Source of the DNA: Pedobacter steynii
Lineage (GTDB): Bacteria > Bacteroidota > Bacteroidia > Sphingobacteriales > Sphingobacteriaceae
NCBI RefSeq assembly: GCF_001721645.1
Contig: NZ_CP017141.1
Coordinates: 1,426,001 to 1,490,000 of the forward strand
Reading direction: 5' to 3'
Length of the DNA: 64,000 bases
In this document: piece after piece, positions 33,916-40,703 of the stretch
How the letters are laid out: every line of letters begins with the position of its first letter
Position numbering within the stretch: position 1 is the stretch's first letter
Program-made: the position numbers and the translations under genes
The notes under the pieces: model-generated
The model's input: only the letters and a program-made list of their open reading frames with translations
Database searches by the model: none
What the model was told of the DNA's origin: nothing

Positions 33916-33959
33916 AAATAGAAAAGGTTCGGAATATCATTTCCGAACCTTTTCTATTT
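33916..33959. terminator. bidirectional terminator between tex and rtcB-1
   Basis: Perfect 19-bp stem (AAATAGAAAAGG... / ...CCTTTTCTATTT) with a 6-base loop; the T run on each side serves tex and the converging rtcB. It touches the rtcB stop codon at 33958-33960. Confidence 0.9.
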
Positions 33960-35382
33960 AATCCTCCCGGCTCCCGTCATCGGCCATACGGACGATTTTC
34001 GGACTAAACCTGGCCACAACGTCTACGAGCTCTTTTTGAGCATCCATCACCAGGTTGATGTCTTTATAAGCCATAGGGGCTTCATCTAATCCGGCGCCAA
34101 TTAAGGTAACTTTATGTTCCTTCAAGATAGCCCTCATCTGATCTCTGGAGATGTTCTGAATGGCTTTTGTTCGGCTCATCAATCTTCCGGCACCATGAGA
34201 AGCAGAGTTGATCGCTGCGGTCTCTCCTTTTCCGCGGACCAGGAAACCCGGAGCGGTCATAGAGCCTGGAATAATCCCCATCACTCCTTTACCGGCAGGG
34301 GTAGCCCCTTTACGGTGAACAATCACTTCTTCTCCGTTCCAGACCTCTTTCCAGGCAAAATTATGGTGGTTTTCTACCCTGGCCAACACCTCTGCTCCAA
34401 TGGCTTTTGTTAGTTTCTTATGGATCACCTCATGACAGGCAGAAGCGTAATCACCCGCAAGGTTCATCGCCAGCCAGTATTCTTGTCCGGCTTCAGAATT
34501 CATATCCAGATAAGCCAGGTTTACGGCTTCCTGTGGAAGCTTACATAATTCTTTAGCCAGCCTGGTATAATGCCCGGCTACTGTTGCCCCAAATCCACGT
34601 GAGCCGGAATGCGTCAGTAAGGCAAGGTATTTTCCCTTCGGAATGTTTAAAGCACCATCGTCTTTCTCAAATTCAATAATCCCCCATTCCACAAAGTGAT
34701 TTCCACCACCAGAGCTTCCCAGCTGTGAATAAGCCTTATCATGCAGGTTTTTGATCATCGGCGTCAGGTTAAACTCTGCACGCTCCAATACTTCATGATC
34801 TGCTTTATACTGGCCATGAAAACCATGCCCGGCGCCAAATTTAGTATGTGCAATCAATTCTCTTTTGAACTGAGCCTCATTTTCATGGAAATGGCTTTCT
34901 GAAATATCGAATACAGATAAGGCCATCCGACAACCGATGTCGACACCCACACCATATGGTATAATTGCATTACGGGTAGCTAAAACACCTCCTATCGGCA
35001 AACCGTAACCCTGATGTGCATCGGGCATTAATGCGCCTGCAACACTTACAGGTAACCTCATCGCAATGTTCATCTGTTTTCTCGCACCTTCTTCTATCTG
35101 GTCTCCCCCGTATACGGTATAAGCGGTTGCCTGTGCCGATAACGCAATCGTTTCATCTACTGGTGCCGCAGCTTCTTCAATGATGGCCGTGGCCAGTTTT
35201 TCCAGGATCTCATGATCGATGAACTGCTCTGGTTTTGCTTTTACTTCCAGCAATAAGGTGATGAGTTCTTCTTTGTTAAATTCCTCAAATCCTTTTTCAA
35301 TCAGACTTAATGCAAGTCCGAGTGTTTTTCCGGGAGCATAACCTCTTTCAATGAGTTCGTTCCCATTTAATATATGTTTCAT
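33958..35382 (-). CDS. rtcB: RtcB-family RNA ligase, copy 1
   Basis: 474 residues. RtcB seals RNA ends with a 2',3'-cyclic phosphate or 3'-phosphate to a 5'-OH, using GTP and Mn2+. Conserved motifs: GVDIGCRMAL (metal-binding D and C), SSGGGNHFVEWG, HSGSRGFGA, NHHNFAW, and HRKGATPA with the guanylylated histidine. Last gene of the minus-strand unit tRNA-like RNA-small ORFs-slipin-rtcB; a 67-base gap with a small CTCAT-TTCT-ATGAG hairpin separates it from slipin. A second copy lies at 38530. No archease (rtcA-type partner) is seen. Confidence 0.93.
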   Translation of the reverse strand: MKHILNGNELIERGYAPGKTLGLALSLIEKGFEEFNKEELITLLLEVKAKPEQFIDHEILEKLATAIIEEAAAPVDETIALSAQATAYTVYGGDQIEEGARKQMNIAMRLPVSVAGALMPDAHQGYGLPIGGVLATRNAIIPYGVGVDIGCRMALSVFDISESHFHENEAQFKRELIAHTKFGAGHGFHGQYKADHEVLERAEFNLTPMIKNLHDKAYSQLGSSGGGNHFVEWGIIEFEKDDGALNIPKGKYLALLTHSGSRGFGATVAGHYTRLAKELCKLPQEAVNLAYLDMNSEAGQEYWLAMNLAGDYASACHEVIHKKLTKAIGAEVLARVENHHNFAWKEVWNGEEVIVHRKGATPAGKGVMGIIPGSMTAPGFLVRGKGETAAINSASHGAGRLMSRTKAIQNISRDQMRAILKEHKVTLIGAGLDEAPMAYKDINLVMDAQKELVDVVARFSPKIVRMADDGSRED

Positions 35383-35449: not shown

Positions 35450-36544
35450 TTATTTAACAAAGATCTGCTTCAACTGATCGATCATTTGTCCGCTTCCGGA
35501 TAAGCTGATCGTGTTGATCTTTTCTGCAATCTTCTCTACATATTCCATTTCTTTCAATTTATACAACATGGCATTATCTTCCATCAGTTTTGCCGTATTT
35601 AACAAACTTCTGGTAGAGGCGGTTTCCTCTCTTCTCGTAATCAGGTTGGCTTGTGCTCTTTTTTCAGCAATCAAAACCTGATTCATGATTTCTTTGATGT
35701 CACCTGGTAGTATAATGTCTTTCAATCCGCAGTTGAGTAATTCAACACCCAAAAGCGCGGCATTCGCTGCGGAGCTGGTCAAGACATGATTTGCAATCTT
35801 TTCCTTGCTTTCCATCAACTCATCAAAAGTTAGCCTTCCAATGAATTCTCTTAAAGATAACTGAATCAATACGTACAGTTGTTTCTCAAATTCCTTGTTT
35901 TCCAACAGGGCTTTGATGGCATCTGATACTTTGTACTGAACACTAAAGTTGATTCTCAACTGCGCTTTATCCTTGGTTAAAATTTCCTGGCCTGCGATTT
36001 CCATGTTCAGTTGTCTCAAGTCAGTTTTCAACACCTGGATCAGCGTGCTGTTGTTCCACCAGATGTAATTTCCTACTTCCAGTACACGTTCAAACTTTCC
36101 ATCAACCATCATCAAAGCGGCTTCATAGCTCTCAATTCTGAAAGATTTGACATAAGGCTGCATCAAAGACTTTAACAAAGTGCTTTTATCTATGTTTTCA
36201 GTGATCTCATACTTATTCAGGTCCACATTCAGAAAGGAGTATTTGTTTAATCCGATCCAGAAAGCATATCTTCCGGCAGTCAAGACCTGCTTGAAGTTCT
36301 CATTTTGATAAACCAATACCAAAGTATTGTCTCTGACTTCCACCAGGTGTATCAGGTTTTCGAAATCTTTATTTTGTAAGAGTACATCCAGCTCCGTAGA
36401 AGCGATGAAGGTTTTAGACTGATCATAAACTTCCACAGTTTCTCCAAATCCCAACCAGTAGTTTCCGGCTGTTATTACTCTTTTGAATTCTCTGTTTTTG
36501 TAAACCAACCCCACAGAGTTGGTATTAATGGTTACTCTTTTCAT
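35450..36544 (-). CDS. slipin family (SPFH/band 7) protein without transmembrane anchor
   Basis: 364 residues. The SPFH domain covers about 130-300 (VKTDLRQLNMEIAGQEILTKDKAQLRINFSVQYKV, ending in a coiled tail RAQANLITRREETAST). The N-terminus holds three copies of a short unit, F-x-(R/Q)-V-(I/L)-x2-G-x-Y at F20-Y29, F84-Y93 and F151-Y160, in place of the usual hydrophobic hairpin; no membrane helix is visible, so it may be cytosolic. SPFH proteins form rings; the gene lies upstream of rtcB and is often found beside RtcB. Its start overlaps a small upstream ORF. Confidence 0.85.
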   Translation of the reverse strand: MKRVTINTNSVGLVYKNREFKRVITAGNYWLGFGETVEVYDQSKTFIASTELDVLLQNKDFENLIHLVEVRDNTLVLVYQNENFKQVLTAGRYAFWIGLNKYSFLNVDLNKYEITENIDKSTLLKSLMQPYVKSFRIESYEAALMMVDGKFERVLEVGNYIWWNNSTLIQVLKTDLRQLNMEIAGQEILTKDKAQLRINFSVQYKVSDAIKALLENKEFEKQLYVLIQLSLREFIGRLTFDELMESKEKIANHVLTSSAANAALLGVELLNCGLKDIILPGDIKEIMNQVLIAEKRAQANLITRREETASTRSLLNTAKLMEDNAMLYKLKEMEYVEKIAEKINTISLSGSGQMIDQLKQIFVK

Positions 36545-36864: not shown

Positions 36865-36929
36865 TTTTAAGCCGAATGTTTTTCTCCAATGCTTAACAGC
36901 GAGGGTTTGTGAAGTTCCTCTTCTTCTAA

Positions 36930-37004
36930 GTGGATCTTAAATCCATTGCATTACCAGTTTTGCTATTCCAATTTTGGTTGGAAGCAGGATTCGAACCTGC
37001 AATT
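36930..37004 (-). ncRNA. circularly permuted tRNA-like module B (type II, Leu(UAA)-like)
   Basis: In RNA order: AATT (variable-arm end), T arm GCAGG-TTCGAAT-CCTGC (36984-37000), 3' acceptor strand TTCCAA, loop CCAAAA, 5' acceptor strand TTGGAA (36966-36971), TA at the 8-9 position, a type II D arm GCAAAACTGGTAATGC (36948-36963), then an anticodon arm ATGGA-TTTAAGA-TCCAC with anticodon TAA and a purine at 37. The D loop keeps G18-G19 and A14; A15 and T48 could form the Levitt pair. Order is T arm before D arm, the reverse of a normal tRNA. A Leu-like anticodon is visible, but no aminoacylation end or CCA is present. Confidence 0.7.
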
Positions 37005-37077
37005 TGTATTGCTCTACCTCTGAGCTATCCCGGAAAACCGGGAATGGGATTTGAACCCATGACCCATACATGTTATT
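37005..37077 (-). ncRNA. circularly permuted tRNA-like module A, ends in the anticodon loop
   Basis: RNA order: AATAACA, anticodon-stem strand TGTAT (37066-37070), variable loop GGGTC, T arm ATGGG-TTCAAAT-CCCAT (37044-37060), 3' acceptor strand TCCCGG, loop TTTT, 5' acceptor strand CCGGGA (37028-37033), TA, D arm GCTC-AGAGGTA-GAGC (37011-37025), A26, anticodon-stem strand ATACA (37005-37009). The two outer strands pair (ATACA/TGTAT), so the module is a full tRNA body with the acceptor closed by TTTT and its ends in the anticodon loop. T8, A14, G15-C48, G18-G19, A21, T54-T55-C56, A58 and G53-C61 are all present. Confidence 0.8.
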
Positions 37078-37182
37078 GACAACCTATTACCTTAATTCGC
37101 CAGGATATGAAAGCATAATTGCTCCATACTTTGGGGCCATACAGAAACCCGCAACTGCGGACGCTAATGATGTAGTATTGCC

Positions 37183-37257: not shown

Positions 37258-37293
37258 CAAAGATGCATGGGTCATAACGCAGTACAATTGCGC
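37258..37293 (-). promoter_or_regulatory. promoter and WYL operator of the tRNA-like/slipin/rtcB unit
   Basis: Minus-strand TTG (37285-37287), 19 bases, CATCTTTG (37258-37265, one mismatch to TAnnTTTG). The -33 box lies inside a palindrome ACGCA-N7-TGCGC at 37277-37293, of which an inverted near-copy lies at 37389-37405. Confidence 0.6.
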
Positions 37294-37388
37294 AGTTGTT
37301 TTTTATTTGGAGCTATTCTTTTATCTTTCTTATTATCAGGGTGATATTTTTAAATTTTCTCCAAATTAATGGCCTGCCGGTTTTAAAT

Positions 37389-37429
37389 GCGCAGTTGTAT
37401 TGCGTAGTCAAATGCTTTTATTACTTTTA
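37389..37429 (+). promoter_or_regulatory. promoter and WYL operator of the regulator gene
   Basis: GCGCA-N7-TGCGT at 37389-37405 overlaps the TTG -33 box (37400-37402); 19 bases later TACTTTTA (37422-37429) matches 7 of 8 bases of the -7 consensus. The regulator ATG follows at 37447. Autoregulation is likely. Confidence 0.6.
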
Positions 37430-37446: not shown

Positions 37447-38481
37447 ATGTCTATTAATAAATTAGCCCTCATCCGTTACAAAACCATTGATGAATGTTTA
37501 AAAAACCGGTTCCGGAAATGGAGTCTCGACGACCTGATTGAGAAGGTTGCTGCGGTACTATTCGAGTACGAAGGAATCAGCTCAGGGGTAAGTAAACGAA
37601 CAGTTCAGTCGGATATCCAGATTATGAGGAGCGATAAGCTGGGCTATAATGCGCCTATTGTCGTTACCGACCGTAAATACTATGCTTATAGTGACCCTAA
37701 TTACAGCATCACAAAAGCGCCGATCAATAACAACGATATTGAGAAGATGAAGGAGATTGTCGGGGTTTTAAAACAGTTTAATGGCTTTAGCTACTTTGAT
37801 GAGATGAGTGATATGATTGCTAAGCTGGAAAACAACCTGTACAAATCTACCAATCAAAGCAAAAACTGCATTCAGTTCGAAAGCAATAAACAGCTCCGGG
37901 GCTTGAAATTTATTACTCCTCTGTACAGCGCAATACTGAATAAGGTGCCGCTGCTCATCGAGTATAAGTCTTTTAAGGCACTAAAGGCACAGCAAAGTAT
38001 TTACTTCCCTTATCTCTTAAAGGAATATAGGAACCGCTGGTTCCTGATTGCAAAACCAAGAAAGGGCATGACGTTGATTACTTTGGCGCTTGACCGCATT
38101 CTGGAATTTCAGGAATTAACCAAAGAGCCATTCGTAGAATATAAAGGAGTTGATTTTGACCGCTATTTTGAAGATTTACTTGGAGTCACGAAATCTGAAA
38201 GAGATCGCCCTCATAAGGTGATCTTAAAAGTAAATAAAAAGAATGCCCCTTATGTACTGACCAAGCCTCTGCATCATAGTCAGGTCTTATTACAGGAAGA
38301 TCACGATGGCATTATCATTAGGATCGATGTGGTATTGAACTTTGAACTGGAGCGGGAGATATTGGGTTTTGGAGAATGTATGAAAGTCCTGGGGCCAAGA
38401 AATCTGGCTTCCAGAATCAGGAAAAGACTGGAAGAGTCGGCAGCGCAATATAAAAATGAAGAATTCTTTCGCCAAAAATAA
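37447..38481 (+). CDS. WYL-domain transcriptional regulator
   Basis: 344 residues: N-terminal helix-turn-helix (KWSLDDLIEKVAAVLFEYEGISSGVSKRTVQSDIQIMRSD), a WYL domain around 145-230 (IYFPYLLKEYRNRWFLIA, W-F-L in place of W-Y-L) and a C-terminal WCX-like part (VILKVNKKNAPYVL...). WYL proteins sense nucleic-acid or nucleotide ligands and often control defence or DNA/RNA-damage genes. Here it lies divergent from the tRNA-like/slipin/rtcB unit, with twin operators on both promoters, and convergent with rtcB-2. Confidence 0.88.
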   Translation: MSINKLALIRYKTIDECLKNRFRKWSLDDLIEKVAAVLFEYEGISSGVSKRTVQSDIQIMRSDKLGYNAPIVVTDRKYYAYSDPNYSITKAPINNNDIEKMKEIVGVLKQFNGFSYFDEMSDMIAKLENNLYKSTNQSKNCIQFESNKQLRGLKFITPLYSAILNKVPLLIEYKSFKALKAQQSIYFPYLLKEYRNRWFLIAKPRKGMTLITLALDRILEFQELTKEPFVEYKGVDFDRYFEDLLGVTKSERDRPHKVILKVNKKNAPYVLTKPLHHSQVLLQEDHDGIIIRIDVVLNFELEREILGFGECMKVLGPRNLASRIRKRLEESAAQYKNEEFFRQK

Positions 38482-38529: not shown

Positions 38530-39930
38530 TTAATCTCTGTTCATCCGGACAATCTTAGGAAAGAACTTTCCATGTACCTCAATCAGGTCTCTCTGGGCAT
38601 GCATTACCCTTTCGATGTCTTTATAGGCCAATGGATTTTCCTCTACACTTCCACCAATTAAGGTTACGCCGGCGGTGGCCAGCATTTTTTTCAAAGCAGA
38701 GGCTGTGGTGTTGTTCTTTGCTTTTTGTCTGCTCATTGCCCTTCCGGCACCATGTGCAGCAGAGTGTAATGAATTTTCAATCCCTTTACCCATTACCAGA
38801 TAAGCTGCGGTAGCCATACTTCCCGGAATAATGCCCAGTTCTCCCTGATGTGCAGGCGTGGCACCTTTACGGTGAATAATGACCTCTTTTCCATTAGCTA
38901 ACTGATCTTTCCAGGCGAAATTATGGTGGTTTTCCACTTTCGCAAGCGCTTGTAAACCCAGGGATTTCAGCAGACTGGCATGGATCACATCATGACAGGC
39001 CCTGGCATAATCACCTGCAAGGTTCATACTTAACCAGTATTCCTGACCAGCTTCGGTATTCATATCCAGCCAGGCCAGGCTCTTTGCCTCTTTTGGTAAC
39101 CTGCAGACATCCATGGCTATTTTGGTGTAATACATCGCTACATTAGCCCCTAAGCCGCGGCTTCCTGAATGCGAAAGTAAGGCCATATACTTCTTTGCCG
39201 GTAAACCCAGCGTATTGTTTTCATAGAGTTCTATTTCGCCAAATTCTACAAAGTGATTGCCGCTCCCGGAAGTACCCAGTTGTCTGAATGCTTTGCCATG
39301 AAGTTTCTTCAGCAGTTCTGTTTCTTTAAAAACCGGGCTGTCAAGAATGTCATGCTCCGGCTGTATGTCTAATGAGCCCTCCATTCCAAAATGGGTGAGT
39401 TCTCTTAAAGCCACTTTCATCTGGTGACTATAACGCTTAAAAAAACCATCACCTTCATCTATAATGCTCAGGGCCATTCTACAACCGATATCTACACCAA
39501 CAGCATAAGGAATAACCGCATTATCTGTTGCCAGGACACCTCCAATGGGTAAGCCATAGCCGCTATGGGCATCTGGCATTAAAGCGCCCTGAGTAACAAC
39601 AGGAAGTGACATGGCGAGTTCCATTTGTTTCTTTGCACCATGCTCTATCTCTTTGCTGCCATACGTCTTCAGCATTCCACTTTGCTGTAACAGATGGTAA
39701 GATTGGAAATTCACTTCCTTTACCTTATCCATAAATGTTTCGGCAATCTTGCCGAGGTGTTCGTCTTCTACATAATTCTCTGGTGTGTTTTTAATATTGA
39801 TTAATAATTCTATGATCTGATTTTTAGTATGATGCTTGAAATTTTTAGCCATCGTATTGATCACCAGACTTCTTGCTTTATCATTGATATAACCTATTTT
39901 ACTAAGTTCTTTTGTTTTTAAAATGCTCAT
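38530..39930 (-). CDS. rtcB: RtcB-family RNA ligase, copy 2
   Basis: 466 residues, clearly related to copy 1 (same motifs GVDIGCRMAL, SGSGNHFVEFG, HSGSRGLGANVAMYY, NHHNFAW, HRKGATPA with the catalytic histidine). It follows the basic protein at 39936 by 5 bases, so the two form one operon. Both copies keep all visible catalytic residues, so this is not a decayed duplicate; they may differ in substrate or induction. Confidence 0.92.
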   Translation of the reverse strand: MSILKTKELSKIGYINDKARSLVINTMAKNFKHHTKNQIIELLINIKNTPENYVEDEHLGKIAETFMDKVKEVNFQSYHLLQQSGMLKTYGSKEIEHGAKKQMELAMSLPVVTQGALMPDAHSGYGLPIGGVLATDNAVIPYAVGVDIGCRMALSIIDEGDGFFKRYSHQMKVALRELTHFGMEGSLDIQPEHDILDSPVFKETELLKKLHGKAFRQLGTSGSGNHFVEFGEIELYENNTLGLPAKKYMALLSHSGSRGLGANVAMYYTKIAMDVCRLPKEAKSLAWLDMNTEAGQEYWLSMNLAGDYARACHDVIHASLLKSLGLQALAKVENHHNFAWKDQLANGKEVIIHRKGATPAHQGELGIIPGSMATAAYLVMGKGIENSLHSAAHGAGRAMSRQKAKNNTTASALKKMLATAGVTLIGGSVEENPLAYKDIERVMHAQRDLIEVHGKFFPKIVRMNRD

Positions 39931-39935
39931 CGCGT

Positions 39936-40703
39936 TTAATATTGTTGTTGTTCATCATTGGCACATTCCTCCAAAAGGTCGGATAATGTGCGGTTTCGTT
40001 TTGGAATCCGATAGCGGGGTTTTACTTCTTGTCCCCAGCCATATACGCTGTATCCTCTTCCGGTTATCTTGTTCATTCTGCGCCGCAAATAGTGGTTTGT
40101 GATATAATTATCCAGCAGTTGAATTTCCTGTTCCAGGAGGCCGTCCACCATTTTCACTTCAGTGATCATGTGTGGTTTTATTTGCAATACATAGCGCCAG
40201 GGCTCATTAAACCGGTAAACAAAACATTTCGTTTTTCCATCTTTACTCATCTTCTCGTATAAATGAAAATGTGCTTTCTCCGGTTCCGTCAGCTTTAAGC
40301 TATGGTGGTTCCAGTGCCATTCCGAAAACTCCTGCAGAAACTGTTTGATTACCTCAGGTCCTTTGTTTCTCCTGCGGGAACCTCTTCTTCTTTTCTTTAC
40401 TTGGAAAGATTTATCCGGATGGTATTGCACCGTATTGATCTTTTCTAAAAGCGTGCTGAAAAATCCTGTAGAAGGAGACCTTTTGATGTCCTCCCGAACC
40501 ACAAAATGACGTTTCCATCCTTTTTGGTAAGGGTTTGCAAGCGGAATCATGGGTAAATCATGTCTCTTTTGCCAAAGCAGGCCTTCCTTTTTAACGATTT
40601 GAATTAATTGCTTGTCGAAATCCTTTTTTTGTAATCGTTTCTTCCTTCTTGCAGATTTTAATCTATACTGCAAGACATCGAACGATTGTTCATAATTGTC
40701 CAT
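39936..40703 (-). CDS. basic hypothetical protein, operon partner of rtcB-2
   Basis: 255 residues, no family recognised. Strongly basic clusters at the N-terminus (ARRKKRLQKKDF) and near 105-117 (KKRRRGSRRRNKG), with a C-terminal region rich in aromatic and charged residues (NHYLRRRMNKITGRGYSVYGW). Positive charge suggests RNA or DNA binding. It is five bases upstream of rtcB-2, so it likely works with it, for example delivering or protecting RNA. No signal peptide or membrane helix. Confidence 0.7.
   Translation of the reverse strand: MDNYEQSFDVLQYRLKSARRKKRLQKKDFDKQLIQIVKKEGLLWQKRHDLPMIPLANPYQKGWKRHFVVREDIKRSPSTGFFSTLLEKINTVQYHPDKSFQVKKRRRGSRRRNKGPEVIKQFLQEFSEWHWNHHSLKLTEPEKAHFHLYEKMSKDGKTKCFVYRFNEPWRYVLQIKPHMITEVKMVDGLLEQEIQLLDNYITNHYLRRRMNKITGRGYSVYGWGQEVKPRYRIPKRNRTLSDLLEECANDEQQQY

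Follow-up and report, generated by a model that had tools for sequence, protein, structure and literature searches.

Two genes for RtcB-family ligases flank a slipin gene and a divergent gene for a WYL-domain regulator in Pedobacter steynii, and the minus strand between the latter two reads as tRNA parts in an unusual order. This raises the question of what kind of RNA is encoded there and what it does in such company. The locus was analysed in a window of 64,000 nucleotides, meaning the whole stretch of DNA given above, to which all coordinates refer. Positions 36901-37162 of the minus strand are predicted to form a structured RNA, the leader of the slipin-rtcB operon. Its parts and surroundings are as follows.

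33958-35382, minus strand: RtcB-family ligase 1, 67 nt 3' of slipin (Pfam RtcB, 273.9 bits)
35450-36544, minus strand: slipin, an SPFH Band-7 protein of 364 aa (Pfam Band_7, 96.6 bits)
36901-36926, minus strand: likely H-type pseudoknot, GAAG AAGAGGAA CTTC, with the loop GAGG pairing with CCTC
36930-37000, minus strand: module B, predicted permuted tRNA body with a complete anticodon arm, in the order T arm, acceptor hairpin, D arm, position 26, anticodon arm ATGGA-TTTAAGA-TCCAC (covariation; own model R2, 79.6 bits, the window being part of its alignment)
37005-37070, minus strand: module A, predicted permuted tRNA body, in the order open anticodon stem, 5-nt variable part, T arm, acceptor hairpin with TTTT loop, TA, D arm, A26, anticodon stem (sequence; RNAfold; covariation; own model R1, 78.0 bits, the alignment behind it including the window; Rfam YrlA, 39.6 bits)
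37099-37162, minus strand: 5' domain of nested hairpins with a conserved TTTCTGNATAG loop and AGTAT..ATAT.CTG (alignment; coordinates counted by hand)
37258-37265, minus strand: promoter-like CATCTTTG
37278-37296: operator-like near-palindrome, copy 1, a candidate site for the WYL regulator
37390-37408: operator-like near-palindrome, copy 2, before the WYL gene
37447-38481, plus strand: WYL-domain transcription regulator, divergent (Pfam WYL and WCX)
38530-39930, minus strand: RtcB-family ligase 2 (Pfam RtcB, 257.4 bits)

Just upstream of the second rtcB lies a gene for a 255-aa protein (39936-40703, minus strand) for which neither Pfam (E 0.001) nor NCBIfam (0.01) gave a match and PADLOC gave a weak one, to PDC-M03B (E 9.3e-4). 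Relatives of it occur in six of the 80 slipin loci that were compared, the best 80 of 577 relatives.

The elements of module A follow one another on the minus strand as the first-pass annotation had read them, TGTAT-GGGTC-T arm-TCCCGG-TTTT-CCGGGA-TA-D arm-A-ATACA, and the permuted fold and the tRNA core residues that it had listed were borne out. Of the span 37005-37077 that it had assigned to the tRNA body, positions 37005-37070 are paired, and 37071-37077 are a linker. RNAfold predicts the same four helices at -23.3 kcal/mol. Because the z-score is only -1.99 and eight of 200 shuffles fold as well, the energy is weak evidence alone, and conservation decides. In 28 aligned rows, which apart from the window were picked for having the closing stem, 98.4% of the cells are paired and 17 of 20 pairs have changed on both sides, whereas slid versions of the alignment pair in 40-51% and none of 500 shuffles reaches as high. 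The pairings ATACA/TGTAT and TCCCGG/CCGGGA, whose conservation in relatives had been proposed as a check, belong to this covarying body. A chance fold was set aside on this covariation. Module B behaves similarly: in its 32 rows 96.4% of the cells are paired, and both partners have changed in 18 of 20 pairs; its count of further pair types is by itself unexceptional (reached by 83 of 500 shuffles).

Since most rows of both alignments were picked for the stems in question, counts for the unselected arms and flanks are the fairer test. Among non-terminal modules, with no selection on the stem, at least four of the five anticodon-stem pairs form at tRNA spacing in 41 of 50, and all five in 28 of 50. 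When only distinct flank pairs are considered, 24 of 32 have at least four of five pairs, against 18.9% for flanks swapped between loci. Judged from these alignments, module A is a circularly permuted tRNA body conserved by compensatory changes across Bacteroidota. The ends that had been placed in its anticodon loop, on the other hand, were not found: module A is without free ends, and its open stem lies within a longer run of structure that continues into module B, where the chain breaks in the variable loop.

A less unusual explanation would be a decayed tandem array of ordinary tRNA genes that is read across gene borders. With its own cut-offs Rfam reports only a 52-nt tRNA match (36980-37031), and this match spans the border between modules A and B; R1 and R2 pick up tandem real tRNA genes as well, and relatives have real arrays nearby. 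Against this, the acceptor hairpins covary in the permuted unit in the 28 and 32 rows, and their loops are too short to hold two tRNA ends. The acceptor loop has 3-7 nt in 126 of 131 modules and 8-10 nt in the other five (80 loci, the best 80 of 577), with a finder range of 3-12 nt beyond which longer loops would escape. Hairpin covariation and loop length contradict both the decayed array, to which we give almost no weight, and the earlier worry that a normal-order tRNA had been misread.

The commonest acceptor loops are GCAA and TTCG, and CCA occurs in 10 of the 131 modules (again from the best 80 of 577). The acceptor stems are capped by short loops and charging therefore looks impossible; with CCA mostly missing as well, the modules are probably unchargeable as tRNA. 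The loop of module B in the window reads CCAAAA, which places it with some Pedobacter relatives among the few that have CCA, so that the argument from the CCA end rests, for the window itself, on the relatives and on loop length. ARAGORN called neither module as a tRNA and found no tmRNA, and a tmRNA identity was rejected, the only match being one of 18 nt and 13.6 bits near the T arm. Permuted tRNA genes are known in red algae and archaea, and the modules share with them that the 3' half is encoded before the 5' half. Processing to working tRNAs, as in red algae, would also agree with the full anticodon arm of the terminal module. The short acceptor loops and the scarcity of CCA differ from those genes and predict no such processing, module A is without an anticodon, and with the silence of ARAGORN this makes working tRNAs a very improbable outcome.

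Slipin served as the anchor for finding loci, and the 80 named Bacteroidota loci are the best 80 of 577 relatives. The slipin of Pedobacter caeni DSM 16990 is 97% identical. In a family sample, 19 of 151 genomes have slipin, and a permuted module lies upstream of it in all 19, weakly so in L018. Among the 80 loci and the best 150 of 188 R1 matches, 75 loci have a match no longer than 80 nt that is on the strand of slipin and no more than 1000 nt upstream of it. The number of copies per locus is one to four (best 150 of 188 matches; in L066, L071, L074 and L088 tandem real tRNAs may be included), and the module nearest to slipin has a median distance of about 390-400 nt. Among the same matches no R1 module was seen in L040, L041, L050, L070 and L083; L083 offers only 62 nt of upstream sequence and L070 has a weaker R2 match of 36.6 bits. 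At L041:6887, close upstream of a slipin gene for which no module was found, a tRNA-Tyr is predicted. R1 run over whole genomes matches 276 of 296, a tally that was not used because tandem real tRNA genes match R1 too.

The link to RtcB that had been drawn from the setting holds in that this is an RNA-repair locus; the steadier gene partner, however, is slipin and not RtcB. In the best 80 of 577 loci, rtcB is present in 61, in 59 of them on the same strand within 5 kb, a WYL gene is present in 41, and in 11 loci of at least 12 kb that have modules no rtcB was found. In the reverse direction, from the RNA model, 20 regions were read, these being short R1 matches (63-74 nt) chosen by eye among the matches listed, with other short ones left. 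Ten contain slipin, nine contain TROVE and one is a pair of tRNA-Thr genes; in two of the 20 (L171 and L178) the models alone match and the module finder is silent. In these slipin regions of 7-10 kb, rtcB is present in three of ten. It is a frequent and not a constant neighbour of the modules. In S. paucimobilis (Sphingobacterium; L078:8152-9576) rtcB is interrupted, and the slipin matches of G110 and G142 have one in-frame stop each. One distant relative with 31% identity, a candidate phage version, occurs in viral contigs.

Real tRNA genes are further neighbours. In the 6 kb upstream of slipin, ARAGORN predicts them on the slipin strand in 30 of the 80 loci (132 tRNAs, up to 13 per locus) and on the opposite strand in one of 80 (best 80 of 577), a count that leaves out calls overlapping model matches. 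The arrays upstream of slipin in L079, L084, L085, L087, L093 and L099 consist of mostly different tRNA genes, on the strand of slipin. In L076, 20 tRNA genes lie on that strand, eight before the slipin start and 12 after it.

The remainder of the leader is structured as well. For 14 of the 22 predicted pairs in the 5' domain, at least one of 22 rows shows both partners changed, and a strict pattern for the domain is present in 26 of 80 loci (best 80 of 577). An H-type pseudoknot is likely after the anticodon arm: 29 of 44 tails score at least 12, as against 10% of base shuffles, although some of these 29 best solutions are pairings other than the GAAG/CTTC hairpin, and in eight of 44 there is none. 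The window itself scores 10.9, under the cut of 12. Among relatives the loop-tail pairs differ yet match (CACC/GGTG, GAGG/CCTC, TCACCC/GGGTGA). Further upstream, CTTTGTAATGTC is nearly invariant in 17 Pedobacter rows near 37258-37265, and the conserved CTTTGTAATG in the same number of Pedobacter rows suggests a promoter there. The window's CATCTTTG resembles what we take to be the Bacteroidota -7 element, and a sigma-70 scan gave nothing at this putative promoter. Transcription would start at about 37250, and the WYL regulator may control the leader through the near-palindromes.

A leader of this kind could act in cis, the mimic being cleaved or occupied by tRNA-binding enzymes with a resulting change in the expression of slipin and rtcB downstream. 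The position of the module on the slipin strand, in 75 of 80 loci within 1000 nt upstream (best 80 of 577; best 150 of 188 matches), would suit such a sensor, as would a 5' domain and a likely pseudoknot that follow a promoter-like site. The Salmonella rtc operon is controlled by tRNA fragments via RtcR, according to the available part of PMC7790460. In the window, slipin starts about 0.4 kb downstream of the modules and some 350 nt after the pseudoknot, which counts against a sensor. The terminator scan of the window gave a single terminator-like site on the minus strand, inside the 5' domain, no ribosome-site switch was found in the leader, and the WYL regulator could do the sensing instead. 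Such a cis-acting role is improbable on balance.

The first-pass annotation knew of no permuted tRNA in bacteria. Contrary to this, the Y RNA YrlA of Salmonella has the layout of a circularly permuted tRNA (PDB 6CU1; PMC11472068, PMC8394870, in the passages available), and in the former source Y RNA 6CU1 superposes on tRNA through that permutation. Rfam at permissive limits gives YrlA (Y RNA-like) as top match, covering module A (36982-37086, 39.6 bits, E 5.4e-7), and seven YrlA matches were obtained in six relatives, three Ro-type and three slipin-type (31.9-42.2 bits); all are below the gathering threshold of 69. In the window alignment the outer helices have many mismatches and take the T arm of module B as a partner, and the long basal stem by which YrlA binds Ro60, formed by its 5' and 3' ends, was not found in the window. 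No TROVE (Ro60/Rsr) protein was found in the P. steynii genome. Among 38 genomes, TROVE is lacking in 28 of 29 slipin-type genomes and present in nine of nine Ro-type genomes. In the exception (G206:C1:807448-840589) TROVE lies 32 kb from the slipin RNA and has another model match (838974-839050) some 0.8 kb away; this genome probably holds two separate permuted RNAs, one per system. In the family sample TROVE occurs in nine of 151 genomes and slipin in 19 of 151; their overlap is zero with about one expected, which is not significant by itself. Seven of the ten slipin regions score 60.7-67.6 bits with R2, the model that includes the anticodon arm, and no TROVE region exceeds 52.4; tandem real tRNAs reach 57.6 (L164), so that R2 is unspecific by itself.

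By these matches the permuted module is common to the Y RNA (TROVE) and slipin systems. The slipin-linked RNA has in common with YrlA (RF02553; PDB 6CU1) the permuted tRNA module, the capped acceptor stem, the D and T arms, the open anticodon-side stem and the rtcB repair loci. It differs in the missing Ro60 (28 of 29 genomes), the tandem modules, the terminal anticodon arm, the likely pseudoknot and the slipin partner. On this comparison it is best described as a Ro-independent relative of the Y RNA effector module, in tandem and with a predicted tRNA mimic at its end.

Burroughs and Aravind are said to have described, in 2016, SPFH/Band-7 repair systems with "a novel tRNA-like molecule", and reportedly regarded SPFH and TROVE modules as potential scaffolds with cognate RNAs. 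Those systems reportedly share with the present loci the SPFH partner, the RNA-ligase or repair setting and the tRNA-like RNA, and a tRNA-like RNA adjoining an SPFH gene in an RNA-ligase locus was indeed found in the slipin loci. Since such an RNA is reportedly named there, first discovery of the association is not claimed; in the open-licence literature, as far as its listings and passages go, no description of the slipin-linked RNA was found. In the accessible parts of the respective papers, the Anabaena TrcR regulon comprises rtcB, a slipin-family gene and the trn tRNA operon (PMC10272220), and a Pseudomonas rtc locus holds an SPFH gene (PMC13086221). The former has tRNAs, the slipin family and RtcB under one control, as here; the trn operon differs in consisting of ordinary tRNAs, a permuted RNA being unmentioned in those passages of PMC10272220.

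One alternative is a scaffold, in which a Ro-free Y RNA relative would bind slipin (and RtcB or a nuclease) through its elbows and tether a repair particle to the membrane, the anticodon arm contributing shape only. The modules accompany slipin even where no rtcB was found, and among the 20 regions the module adjoins TROVE in nine and slipin in ten, which gives it two protein partners. The scaffold proposal attributed to Burroughs and Aravind for SPFH and TROVE modules points the same way. YrlA occurs with Rsr and PNPase and is modified by DusA and TruB, and Y RNA tethers Rsr to PNPase (PMC8394870, in the part available). A scaffold of this kind is less likely than not, and it leaves unexplained why the terminal loop mostly keeps U33, Y32 and R37 while its triplet changes.

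In terminal modules the outer anticodon stem is mostly missing (14 of 75 reach four of five pairs). Instead, 44 of 76 have an anticodon arm, picked by its stem alone, which follows the D arm at the tRNA spacing of 1 nt. U33 is present in 41 of these 44 arms, Y32 in 41 and R37 in 38, whereas randomly picked arms have U33 in 533 of 1644; two of the three U33 misses (L043 and L044) resemble mis-assigned stems. The triplet takes 20 values in the 44 arms and 19 in the 41 with U33, with types for Leu, Lys, Asn, Asp, His, Gln, Ile, Arg, Tyr, Thr and Pro, in rows that are related and in which it may drift instead of being driven. The window arm carries the anticodon UAA and four of five stem pairs; its loop is TTTAAGA, where the tRNA-Leu(UAA) of P. 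steynii itself has CTTAAAA. At positions 32, 37 and 38 the terminal loops resemble those of real tRNAs with the same anticodon more closely than permutation would produce (a fit as good arose in 10 of 5000 permutations). The signal is weaker when only distinct loops are counted (160 of 5000), and exact loop matches number 11 with 8.5 expected (500 of 5000); 14 tRNA calls near slipin, some possibly real tRNAs, were left out of this comparison. No 7-nt-loop arm was seen at the expected place in 32 of 76 terminal modules, several of which have 8-nt loops or two successive arms. In L037:6551-6680 and L077:4407-4537 the terminal module is followed by two successive anticodon-like arms. The terminal arm appears to be special to the slipin-type RNA as against the TROVE type.

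The first-pass annotation had suggested an RtcB substrate, a decoy or a sensor of anticodon-loop damage, each of which may still apply. We favour a decoy, because U33, Y32 and R37 are mostly kept while the terminal triplet varies. The RNA of 36901-37162 (minus strand) would work as an unchargeable tRNA decoy for anticodon nucleases that RtcB can reseal, a reading to which we assign a probability of roughly 0.4. The slipin-rtcB leader would be transcribed as one RNA, under the WYL regulator, and may be bound to slipin at the membrane. Its tRNA-like modules would capture anticodon nucleases, which bind or cut the decoy, and RtcB would reseal the cut loop so that the bait is usable again. The basis in sequence comparison is the set of permuted bodies, the compensatory changes, the capped acceptors, the varying terminal triplet and the place upstream of slipin, with the putative anticodon arm of module B, which is absent from the first-pass annotation, as the best support. 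The repair setting counts for a decoy, with rtcB in 61, WYL in 41 and upstream tRNA genes in 30 of 80 loci (best 80 of 577). So does, by analogy, the competitive-inhibitor role suggested for YrlA of the Salmonella rsr-yrlBA-rtcBA operon (PMC7790460, in the passages available).

Several observations weigh against a decoy. Module A shows no anticodon loop and is left unexplained by a pure decoy, 32 of 76 terminal modules are without a 7-nt-loop arm at the expected place, and the terminal triplet may simply drift in related rows. The RtcB link is loose, with 11 loci of at least 12 kb in which no rtcB was found and rtcB in three of ten slipin regions reached from the RNA model. The 5' domain and the pseudoknot would be superfluous for a simple decoy, and in Salmonella, as far as the same passages of PMC7790460 go, YrlA is uncut by a RecA-dependent nuclease. 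That there is a whole Ro-independent class of RNA in which inside-out tRNA bodies and a fast-changing anticodon loop serve, together with slipin, as nuclease bait resealed by RtcB is a tentative proposal that we consider rather unlikely.

The permuted tRNA module of Y RNA would be a shared building block with two protein partners, Ro60 and slipin, in RNA repair. The slipin version offers a testable feature: the anticodon loop that it displays retains U33, and its triplet changes between species. If the bait is real, RNA-repair loci could guard tRNAs before they are cut, and the company of real tRNA arrays, a ligase and tRNA mimics would be explained. The RNA would then be a shield in an arms race over tRNA.
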